Shown: piece by piece, positions 7,494-12,955 of the stretch
Layout of the letters: each line of letters opens with the position of its first letter
How positions within the stretch are numbered: position 1 is the first letter of the stretch
Assembly (NCBI GenBank): GCA_902778055.1
Contig: CACYWL010000014.1
Location: 1-58,939 of the forward strand
Length of the DNA: 58,939 nucleotides
Origin: an uncultured Eubacteriales bacterium
GTDB lineage: Bacteria; Bacillota; Clostridia; Christensenellales; Aristaeellaceae
Direction of reading: 5' to 3'
Notes under the pieces: generated by a model
The model's input: the letters and a program-made list of their open reading frames with translations, nothing else
What the model was told of the DNA's origin: nothing
The model's database searches: none
Translations under genes and position numbers: made by a program

Positions 7494-7497
7494 GGGG

Positions 7498-7586
7498 ATC
7501 GCTAGGGGAGCTTTGGCTGAGATGGTAAGAAATTACTGACCCTCATCACCTGATCCGGGTAGTGCCGGCGTAGGGAAGCGAGAAGA
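7498..7586 (+). ncRNA. TPP riboswitch (THI element)
   Basis: The conserved CTGAGA segment (7517-7522) and the THI-box core ACCTGATCCGGGTAGTGCCG (7548-7567), followed by GCGTAGGGA, are present in the canonical order. An intrinsic terminator follows at 7610-7631, so the switch most likely works by transcription termination when thiamine pyrophosphate is bound. All five downstream genes concern thiamine. Confidence 0.95.
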
Positions 7587-7609
7587 AAGCCAGTATCTGT
7601 TTCTGATGA

Positions 7610-11241: not shown

Positions 11242-12531
11242 TTACAGGGCGCGGACGGCTTCGAAGCCCTTTTCCAGATCCCCGAGGATATCGTCGATAT
11301 GCTCGGTGCCGATGGAGAGGCGGATCGTGTTCGGCCGGATTCCCTGATCCTGCAGCTCCTCCTCCGACAGCTGGGAATGGGTCGTGGAAGCCGGATGGAT
11401 CACCAGGCTCTTCACATCCGCCACGTTGGCAAGCAGCGAGAAGATCTCCAGATGATCGATGAAGTCCCAGGCTTCCTTCTGCCCGCCCTTGATCTCAAAG
11501 GTAAAGATGGACGCGCCGCCGTTGGGAAAATAGCGCTGATAGAGCGCGTGGTCCGGATGATCCGGCAGGGAGGGATGGTTTACCTTCTCAACCAGCGGGT
11601 GATTATGAAGGAATTCCACCACCTTCGCCGTGTTCTCCGCGTGCCGGTCCAGCCTCAGGGAGAGCGTCTCCACGCCCTGCAGCAGCAGGAACGCGTTGAA
11701 GGGAGAGATGGCGGCGCCCGTATCCCGCAGCAGGATGGCGCGGATGTAGGTCACGAACGCGGCCGGTCCCACCGCGTCATAGAAGGAGACGCCGTGATAG
11801 CTGGGGTTCGGCGCGGCGATGTTCGGATACTTGCCGCTCGCCTTCCAGTCAAACTTTCCGGATTCCACGATGACGCCGCCCAGGGTCGTTCCGTGGCCGC
11901 CGAGGAACTTCGTCGCGGAATGAACCACGATGTCCGCGCCATGCTCGATGGGACGAATCCAGTAGGGCGTGCCGAAGGTATTGTCGATCACCAGGGGCAG
12001 GCCGTGCCGGTGGGCGATTTCCGCAACGGCGTCGATGTCCGGAATATCGCTGTTGGGATTGCCGAGGGTCTCCAGATAGATCGCCCGGGTGTTCTCCCGG
12101 ATGGCGCCCTCCACCTCCTGAAGGTCATGGGCGTTCACAAAGGTGGTCTCCACTCCGTACTGGGGCAGAGTGTGCTCCAGCAGGTTGAAGCTGCCGCCGT
12201 AGATTGTCTTCTGGGCCACGATATGACCGCCGTTCGCCGCCAGGGCCTGGATCGTATACGTGATCGCCGCGGCGCCGGAGGCCACCGCCAGGGCCGCGCT
12301 TCCGCCCTCCAGGGCGGCCACGCGCTTCTCCAGCACCTCCTGGGTGGAGTTCGTCAGCCGGCCGTAGATATTGCCGGGATCCGCAAGGCCGAAGCGATCC
12401 GCCGCGTGCTGGCTGTTGCGGAAAACATAGGAGGTGGTCTGATAGATCGGCACGGCGCGGGCGTCCGTCGCCGGATCGGGCTGTTCCTGGCCTACGTGAA
12501 GCTGAAGGGTTTCAAATTTGTAGCTGCTCAT
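11242..12531 (-). CDS. metY: O-acetylhomoserine sulfhydrylase (PLP enzyme)
   Basis: 429 residues from the ATG at 12531, which has AAAGGAG about 10 nt upstream; longer in-frame extensions run through the hairpin repeats of the leader and are not credible. It belongs to the Cys/Met-metabolism PLP family: the PLP lysine lies in HSATKFLGGHGT, the N-terminus FETLQLHVGQEQPDPATDAR and PIYQTTSYVF are typical of MetY, and 429 residues fits MetY better than MetB (about 380). The enzyme makes homocysteine from O-acetylhomoserine and sulfide, or cysteine in some homologues. It is monocistronic and preceded by a 390-nt leader that appears to carry an attenuator and four hairpin repeats. Confidence 0.9.
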   Translation of the reverse strand: MSSYKFETLQLHVGQEQPDPATDARAVPIYQTTSYVFRNSQHAADRFGLADPGNIYGRLTNSTQEVLEKRVAALEGGSAALAVASGAAAITYTIQALAANGGHIVAQKTIYGGSFNLLEHTLPQYGVETTFVNAHDLQEVEGAIRENTRAIYLETLGNPNSDIPDIDAVAEIAHRHGLPLVIDNTFGTPYWIRPIEHGADIVVHSATKFLGGHGTTLGGVIVESGKFDWKASGKYPNIAAPNPSYHGVSFYDAVGPAAFVTYIRAILLRDTGAAISPFNAFLLLQGVETLSLRLDRHAENTAKVVEFLHNHPLVEKVNHPSLPDHPDHALYQRYFPNGGASIFTFEIKGGQKEAWDFIDHLEIFSLLANVADVKSLVIHPASTTHSQLSEEELQDQGIRPNTIRLSIGTEHIDDILGDLEKGFEAVRAL

Positions 12532-12588: not shown

Positions 12589-12746
12589 GCTCCCCCGCTC
12601 CGCGGGGGAGCATTTAACTGCTTTTTCCTGTTCCGCTCCCCCGCTTCGCGGGGGAGCGTTCGTCTGCTTTCCTATTCGCCTCCCCCGCTGCGCGGGGGAA
12701 CTCTCTTCTGCTCTTCTTGTTCCGCTCCCTCGCTCCGCGGGGGAAA
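12589..12746 (-). repeat. Four tandem 45-nt hairpin repeats in the metY 5' UTR
   Basis: Four copies begin at 12589, 12634, 12679 and 12724, an exact 45-nt period. Each has a nearly perfect stem CTCCCCCGC / GCGGGGGAG. They are joined by pyrimidine-rich linkers on the plus strand (such as CTGCTTTTTCCTGTTC), which are purine-rich in the mRNA. The linkers are similar to each other, so these are degenerate tandem duplications. They lie between the attenuator terminator and the metY ribosome binding site. Confidence 0.85.
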
Positions 12747-12749
12747 AAG

Positions 12750-12779
12750 AAAAAACCGGGGGCCTTTGAAAGCTCCCGG
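12750..12779 (-). terminator. Intrinsic terminator in the metY leader
   Basis: On the minus strand a stem formed by 12779-12770 and 12765-12756 (CCGGGAGCTT / GGCCCCCGG type) is followed by TTTTTTCTTTTT. Its 5' arm overlaps the 3' arm (12773-12783) of the upstream 11-bp stem, so the two structures exclude each other. Confidence 0.75.
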
Positions 12780-12865
12780 GCATAGGACTGGATATTCCGG
12801 CGCGTCAGGCTCCGCCTGACCCGATGGTGCGCCGAAAACACCCAGTCACCTTACATGCCCGGGAG
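12773..12865 (-). promoter_or_regulatory. Antiterminator or aptamer-like structure upstream of metY
   Basis: The outer stem pairs CTCCCGGGCAT (12865-12855) with ATGCCCGGGAG (12783-12773), 11 perfect base pairs. Inside are GACTGG / CCAGTC, then GGCGC / GCGCC, then GTCAGGC-GGA-GCCTGAC. The outer stem's 3' arm is shared with the terminator. I do not recognise a SAM-I, SAM-II, THF, T-box or other known riboswitch core. Either ligand binding or ribosome stalling could control the choice of fold. Confidence 0.55.
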
Positions 12866-12894
12866 ATAAGCATTCGACACATCATCGTCTTCAT
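12805..12894 (-). CDS. Putative Met/Cys-rich leader peptide of metY (29 aa)
   Basis: The ATG at 12894 has AAAGGAG with a 9-nt spacer. The ORF has 29 codons and ends at TGA 12805-12807. It begins M-K-T-M-M-C-R-M and contains four Met and three Cys, far above their usual frequency, directly upstream of a gene for methionine/cysteine synthesis. The codons at positions 4-8 lie just before the 5' arm of the 11-bp antiterminator stem, where a stalled ribosome would leave that arm free. Translation has not been shown; the ORF could be coincidental. Confidence 0.45.
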   Translation of the reverse strand: MKTMMCRMLISRACKVTGCFRRTIGSGGA

Positions 12895-12926
12895 TGCGTC
12901 CGGCTCCTTTCGGAAGAATTGAGTGC

Positions 12927-12955
12927 ATCTTACAGCCATTCACCTACTATGTCAA
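12927..12955 (-). promoter_or_regulatory. Sigma-A promoter of the metY leader transcript
   Basis: On the minus strand TTGACA (12950-12955), a 17-nt spacer and TAAGAT (12927-12932). The expected start point near 12920 is 10 nt before the ribosome site of the leader ORF. Confidence 0.8.

Follow-up and report, generated by a model that had tools for sequence, protein, structure and literature searches.

The leader of metY in the window (the whole stretch of DNA analysed here, 58,939 nucleotides) is, with a probability that we put at about 0.84, a ribosome-mediated transcription attenuator that reads the supply of cysteine, and secondarily of methionine, through a 29-codon ORF. The comparative base of this reading is formed, in the sequences compared, by the conserved frame of the ORF, the Cys codons at core position -1 or 0, the covarying stems P1 to P3 and a terminator that shares the 3' arm of P1; the mechanism, in which a stalled ribosome would lead to readthrough, is predicted from modelled folds. 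The metY leader is likely, judging from its relatives, a member of a new family of ribosome-mediated attenuators, a known kind of control, and among the matches listed from the open-licence literature no published account was recognised as this family. Sulfur amino-acid genes in Firmicutes are generally held to be under the control of SAM-I, T-box or protein regulators. According to the available text of a 2010 study, no leader-peptide system was known outside Proteobacteria and Actinobacteria, ermC aside, before the his leader of bacilli described there (PMC2965389).

Elements of the metY leader

The elements of the leader and the gene that it presumably regulates are the following, each with its basis:

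12950..12955, minus strand: -35 hexamer TTGACA (sequence and promoter scan)
12927..12932, minus strand: -10 hexamer TAAGAT, after a 17-nt spacer (sequence and promoter scan)
12904..12910, minus strand: Shine-Dalgarno AAAGGAG of the leader ORF (sequence)
12805..12894, minus strand: leader ORF of 29 codons, MKTMMCRMLISRACKVTGCFRRTIGSGGA (ATG 12894-12892, stop TGA 12807-12805)
12877..12885, minus strand: control codons ATG ATG TGT (Met4 Met5 Cys6), the permissive stall zone (family residue counts and stall modelling)
12871..12879, minus strand: near-invariant core TGTCGAATG, Cys-Arg-Met (family codon counts)
12855..12887, minus strand: 5' strand of the early hairpin E, with the control codons and the P1 5' arm (predicted fold)
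12822..12849, minus strand: 3' strand of the early hairpin E (predicted fold)
12855..12865, minus strand: P1 5' arm CTCCCGGGCAT, antiterminator (sequence and covariation)
12842..12847, minus strand: P2 5' arm GACTGG (fold; P2 covaries in the family)
12829..12834, minus strand: P3 5' arm CGGCGC (fold; P3 covaries in the family)
12804..12820, minus strand: inner hairpin P4, GTCAGGC/GCCTGAC, which contains the leader stop codon (sequence and fold)
12798..12803, minus strand: P3 3' arm GCGCCG (fold)
12786..12791, minus strand: P2 3' arm CCAGTC (fold)
12773..12783, minus strand: P1 3' arm ATGCCCGGGAG, which doubles as the 5' half of the terminator (sequence and covariation)
12744..12779, minus strand: intrinsic terminator (stem 12779-12756, T tract TTTTTTCTTTTT 12755-12744)
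11242..12531, minus strand: metY, O-acetylhomoserine/O-acetylserine sulfhydrylase, presumed regulated gene (NCBIfam TIGR01326)

An earlier, sequence-only reading of this region had described a near-consensus promoter, an ORF rich in Met and Cys behind AAAGGAG, and an 11-bp stem whose 3' arm is shared with a terminator, and all three were recovered. The promoter agrees with the consensus at 10 of 12 positions, and two promoter-like sites were present in the region compared with a mean of 0.1 in shuffled sequences. The ORF holds four Met and three Cys among its 29 residues, the 11-bp stem P1 joins 12865-12855 to 12783-12773, and the latter arm is used by the terminator stem. The segment from 12865 to 12773 folds with -62.0 kcal/mol, against a mean of -34.5 for shuffled sequences (z -8.4). 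The terminator was absent from a simple terminator scan; its stem carries one A-C mismatch. The product of metY scored 626 bits against TIGR01326 (cut-off 495.1). That reading had also recognised no SAM-I, T-box or THF core, and Rfam 15 gave no family at the gathering score at the leader, SAM-I (RF00162) and T-box (RF00230) included; relaxing the threshold to E 10 yielded 11 matches, every one below the gathering score, and a search of 20 family loci, this leader among them, likewise returned none at that score. The arrangement recurs elsewhere with a conserved frame, Cys codons and covarying stems and, on this comparative evidence, is more than a product of chance.

Two other features were seen nearby. 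Between the terminator and metY, in the 5' UTR, the interval 12591-12744 holds the palindrome TCCCCCGCNNNGCGGGGGA in four copies, spaced by about 45 bases, where 0.01 would be expected by chance, and a slightly longer form of it occurs at only two further places in the genome with at most one mismatch. An ABC-transporter operon whose end is close to metY is preceded by a TPP riboswitch (7494-7593, plus strand, 67.9 bits).

Spread, reading frame and pairing of the leader family

A DNA query with the leader found matches in 29 of 100 genomes, its own included, all in the same genus, and the genome of the window carries a second copy before metN (contig C11). A covariance model built from 25 leaders matched 33 of 250 genomes of the family, again with the own genome, in 11 of the 50 genera sampled. 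At least 119 stretches in the named genome collection carry the exact core pattern, and the titles listed include Lachnospiraceae, Ruminococcaceae, Saccharofermentans, Christensenella, Blautia, Acetatifactor and Anaerovibrio lipolyticus DSM 3074, Anaerovibrio being a member of the Negativicutes. The wider spread was patchy, with 10 of 391 genomes of the class and 5 of 398 of the phylum, the own genome being counted in both.

The leader set comprised 169 distinct leaders, after two look-alikes had been taken out of 171; the look-alikes of the TATCGNATGATGACC pattern are MnmG coding sequence. The set received 98 of the 119 pattern stretches, the others being duplicates, close to ends, interrupted by N or lacking a P1 3' arm within two mismatches; two stretches titled as Gammaproteobacteria and Pseudomonas (L142 and L144) have no exact P1 3' arm. 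Left out were three of 31 early loci, with no core within six mismatches, and L119, likewise without one. Only identical leaders were merged, and some genomes in the set are probably the same organism. The representatives number 143, of which 88 were collected with the core letters fixed and 55 lie outside the exact pattern. A promoter-like site was found upstream in 145 of 168 family leaders compared with 15.8 in shuffled sequences. A variant leader (L116 and L117) precedes a gamma-synthase-like gene, with the core kept and P1 shifted by one base with a bulge.

The frame of the leader ORF is conserved. Of 171 leaders, 163 combine a Shine-Dalgarno sequence of at least four matches with an ATG in the frame of the core, the counts for the other two frames being 5 and 4, and the residues outside the core (n = 5046) comprised 9.4% Cys and 7.5% Met, these frame and composition counts still including the two MnmG look-alikes. 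The Cys codons on which the earlier reading relied are conserved too, each of the 143 representatives having a Cys at core codon -1 or 0 (fraction 0.64 at codon -1 and 0.99 at codon 0). Met was present at codons -3 to -1 in 120 of 143, mainly at -2 and -3, and Met or Cys made up 413 of the 570 residues at -3 to 0 compared with 44 of 693 at -8 to -4. In 142 of 143 representatives, the stop codon falls within the stretch bounded by the two arms of P1.

Covariation of 12855-12865 with 12773-12783 had been proposed as a check on P1. In P1, 99% of the cells were paired and six of ten pairs showed two-sided changes, and P2 and P3 behaved likewise. Over the 101 aligned matches, 92.6% of the cells paired and 18 of 22 pairs had changed on both sides, with a covariation score of 0.249 compared with 0.144 when shuffled and at most 0.071 when slid, in an alignment that was fitted to the covariance model and therefore leans towards the model structure. 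The P1 3' arm is followed by a T tract in 136 of 143 representatives, and the terminator stem has a median MFE of -15 kcal/mol. Together, the covariation, the frame, the Cys codons and the Rfam searches support the attenuator interpretation at the comparative level. Some further pairings were considered and dropped. Pairs between the core and the 3' half of the terminator proposed by RNAalifold involve near-invariant outer columns, with a two-sided change in one sequence at one pair, and a near-complement of the core, with 61 matches in the bin directly preceding the P1 3' arm, crosses P1. The P1 5' arm paired upstream in 27 of 143 representatives compared with 42 when the upstream region was shuffled, and about three pairs were obtained each way in the own leader; as such pairing is rarer than in shuffled sequences, no upstream protector hairpin is indicated.

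A readable downstream ORF was present in 163 of the 169 leaders. These ORFs comprised 96 metY/gamma-synthase genes, 34 substrate-binding proteins, 16 ABC permeases, five cysK, five M20 peptidases, three metN and four others, of which one is rhodanese-like by eye and two were read in a frame overlapping a permease gene. Downstream groups were judged by single representatives run against NCBIfam, among which the cysK and PepT-like peptidase representatives were above the cut-off, the MetN-, MetQ- and amino-acid-binding proteins were below it, and the permease passed only a general permease domain model; judged in this way, no cysS-like gene was found among the downstream groups. The M20/PepT-like peptidases stand behind leaders L022, L006, L052, L127 and L217 (5 of 163), which suggests peptide breakdown as a source of sulfur amino acids. 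In the genome of the window, the single SAM-I match (L262, C15:4786-4905, minus strand) precedes a metK-like gene named by eye. Since this sole match stands at a metK-like gene, the sensing of SAM and of Cys appears to be split between metK and metY. Six T-box matches were found in the same genome, two of them listed on contig C7 and none in the window.

Ribosome position, the predicted early hairpin and the nearly frozen core

Stalls were modelled in 68 of the 143 representatives with a ribosome footprint that reaches back 15 nt from the first base of the A-site codon and forward 12 nt. As long as the A site had not passed codon 0, P1 was predicted in 76-78% of the 68 leaders; at codon +1 it was predicted in 60%, and at +2 in 0%, with the terminator in 84%. 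In a second set (n = 135), placing the A site on the Met codon at +2 was predicted to give the terminator in 88% of the leaders and P1 in none. Since P1 is free up to codon 0 and lost by +2, Cys occupies the last fully permissive codon. The sequence-only reading had supposed that stalls at codons 4 to 8 would free P1, and this held for codons 4 to 6 and partly for codon 7, but not for Met8, at which the own leader was mixed (about 5.0 P1 pairs compared with 3.6 terminator pairs); with the A site at codon +4, P1 was gone and the terminator formed. Because Met codon 8 is past the permissive zone, the sensor would read Cys first and Met at codons 4 and 5, so that the joint Met and Cys sensing proposed earlier is retained with Cys as the dominant signal.

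In transcripts cut before the P1 3' arm, the core and the P1 5' arm folded onto the next 30 nt, giving an early hairpin (E) that, in the own leader, is predicted to join 12887-12855 to 12849-12822. In 60-nt segments, the core was paired downstream in 126 of 143 representatives and the P1 5' arm in 133, and the 54-nt E segment had a mean z of -1.33 compared with +0.38 and -0.50 for the flanking segments. The P1 5' arm paired with the inner region in 105 of 143 leaders against 68 when that region was shuffled. The complementarity of E was -16.9 kcal/mol compared with -11.9 with its 3' strand shuffled, and it was -16.4 with the partners swapped (best of 40, -16.7), a swap therefore costing 0.5. 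Two-sided covariation of E cannot show, one of its strands being invariant. Among 139 leaders, E (over six pairs) formed in 85 when free, in 41 with Cys in the A site and in 92 with the ribosome at the stop codon, and P3 (over four pairs) in 58, 94 and 37, respectively. The inner part of E held the P1 5' arm in 84 of 139 leaders under the Cys stall, in 96 when free and in 103 at the stop.

These folds are consistent with a switch of the following kind. In a well-fed cell, the ribosome would reach the stop codon inside the inner structure and mask P3, E would re-form behind it and lock the P1 5' arm with the control codons, and with E locked the terminator would form and metY would be off. When Cys-tRNA is short, the ribosome would stall with a Cys codon in the A site, breaking the outer part of E and ending one nucleotide short of P1; P2/P3 and then P1 would form, and transcription would read through, with metY on. 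A shortage of Met at the preceding Met codons would have the same effect. The sequence-only reading had found the unstarved state less clear, with the stop codon inside the inner hairpin. That position is correct (TGA 12807-12805 in P4), and the predicted hairpin E, which that reading did not have, would make the state intelligible in that a ribosome at the stop codon favours termination.

In an energy comparison that omits the pairs of the 3' half of the terminator, the own leader was balanced towards the antiterminator by 3.4 kcal/mol without ribosome and by 4.6 with Cys stalled, and towards the terminator by 3.8 kcal/mol once the ribosome stood at the stop; from Cys stall to stop, 116 of 134 leaders showed an energy shift in the expected direction (median 4.3), and the antiterminator was favoured outright under the Cys stall in only 58 of 134. 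At full-length equilibrium, the own leader favoured P1 (9.5 pairs) even when the ribosome had reached the stop, and the terminator won in 43% of 135 leaders at the stop, 30% free and 21% under the Cys stall. The equilibrium models have the right direction and predict an incomplete switch, so that termination would have to rely on the order of folding during transcription or on moving or further ribosomes.

The core itself is nearly frozen. Leaders found by the exact pattern are uninformative on its variation; in the 71 others, for which up to four substitutions were allowed and a partial bias towards the frozen core persists, CGA was found in 71, ATG in 71 and TGT in 68. When all Cys and Arg synonyms were allowed in the 250 family genomes, 43 of 51 matches read TGTCGAATG, and of the eight others seven were without a P1 3' arm and one (L271) had an arm with one mismatch; one leader elsewhere in the genus reads TGTAGAATG. 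In nine genes of the window, CGA is used for 1 of 266 Arg codons and TGT for 0 of 40 Cys codons. In the genes downstream of the representatives, CGA accounts for 33 of 1310 Arg codons where GC3 is above 0.6 and for 17 of 520 in the rest, and TGT for 16 of 73 and 16 of 47 Cys codons, respectively. The freezing of the core is probably explained for the most part by strands shared among E, P1-P3 and the coding frame. Hairpin E explains the invariant CGA, rare in these genes, only in part, and a timing role of the rare codons in the leader is possible.

The constancy of the core could also point to arrest by the nascent peptide, in which an abundance of a ligand such as cysteine would make a conserved M-C-C-R-M peptide stall the ribosome, so that the P1 5' arm would be covered and the terminator would form; the regulated outcome would be unchanged, with sensing by the peptide in the exit tunnel and not by uncharged tRNA. 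Arg-Met follows the Cys in 143 of 143 representatives, 88 of which were collected with those letters fixed, and occupancy of codons +2 to +10 is predicted to yield the terminator. We nevertheless regard arrest as improbable. The constraint looks to be at the nucleotide level, synonymous forms of the core being almost absent; the E pairing accounts for part of it; and codons +3 and +4 vary, with Leu in 95 of 143 at +3 and no majority residue at +4. In addition, a G-C to A-U change in P1 replaces Ala +7 by Thr in 7 of 143 representatives while the pair is kept by a compensatory change, which points to RNA pairing as the constraint at that site in the sequences compared.

A ligand-binding riboswitch, with P1-P4 as the aptamer and an incidental ORF, would agree with the covariation of P1-P3 and with the use of one element before several sulfur genes, in the style of a riboswitch regulon. 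It would not account for the conserved frame nor for the enrichment of Cys at the permissive boundary, neither the leader nor the 20 loci gave an Rfam match at the gathering score, and the inner region had no invariant column in the first alignment, where all such columns belonged to the terminator, to the arms of P1 or to codons outside it; we hold a riboswitch to be very improbable. A small-protein gene with an ordinary terminator, whose peptide would act alone while the downstream gene has its own promoter, is scarcely credible, since, good translation signals of the ORF notwithstanding, the peptide outside the core is weakly conserved (non-synonymous in 98 of 152 differing codons upstream and 589 of 740 downstream, over pairs), the stems covary and are mutually exclusive, and sulfur genes consistently lie downstream.

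Proposed regulon and relation to known systems

Under ribosome-mediated attenuation, metY, cysK, Met/cystine transporters and a small number of peptidases would form a regulon under a common switch, the transporters being assigned by gene class with presumed substrates. A leader-peptide attenuator appears in this way to serve a sulfur regulon across many uncultured Clostridia of gut and rumen. For annotators, the leaders supply a covariance-model family and a prediction of Cys-responsive operons in organisms difficult to culture. They also lend themselves to a clean test of the way in which the place of a codon relative to the antiterminator determines amino-acid specificity (on for Cys at codon 0, off for a stall at +2). 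Tentatively, and with the odds leaning against it, we propose a regulon-wide class of Cys/Met attenuators that behaves like a riboswitch class: a frozen 24-nt module (UGU CGA AUG and the antiterminator arm), common to Clostridia and Negativicutes, would be reused before several sulfur operons per genome, the same nucleotides acting as sensor codons and also forming the early hairpin and the antiterminator, and the rare CGA directly after the sensor Cys would time the race between ribosome and polymerase.

SAM-I (RF00162) and T-box (RF00230) are RNA control elements of the same genome, and neither model matches the metY leader. With the trp- and his-type attenuators, as far as their description in the text available to us goes, the leader shares mutually exclusive hairpins and control codons for the amino acid concerned, E being like hairpin 1:2, P1-P3 like 2:3 and the terminator like 3:4 (PMC1183508). 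It differs from them in that P1 is a compound stem enclosing P2-P4 into which the ORF runs, and in that the family's sequence is nearly frozen across families and reused within one genome. In the cys operon leaders of Mycobacterium, Propionibacterium and Bifidobacterium, too, a short ORF containing a run of Cys codons precedes cysteine genes; in the portions of that report available, this run is close to the stop codon and Mycobacterium showed no conserved terminator hairpin, whereas a terminator and a covarying antiterminator are present in the metY leader (PMC1262725). The leader uORFC-8-2 of the Rhodobacterales cysS gene has a uORF with tandem Cys codons, a first stem containing these codons and an intrinsic terminator, for which ribosome-mediated attenuation was proposed, and in all three features it is like the metY leader (PMC8632094). 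In the accessible part of its description, uORFC-8-2 is described for cysS of Rhodobacterales only, and UGC is its prevailing Cys codon (PMC8632094), while the present family has UGU, the near-invariant UGUCGAAUG core, metY, cysK and transporter genes, and hosts among Clostridia and Anaerovibrio; the two are set apart here on the basis of that published description. By analogy with these systems, so far as their available descriptions reach, the metY leader would act in the manner of trp/his attenuation; although different in host, genes, core and structure, it stands closest to the cysS uORF of Rhodobacterales and the cys leaders of actinobacteria.
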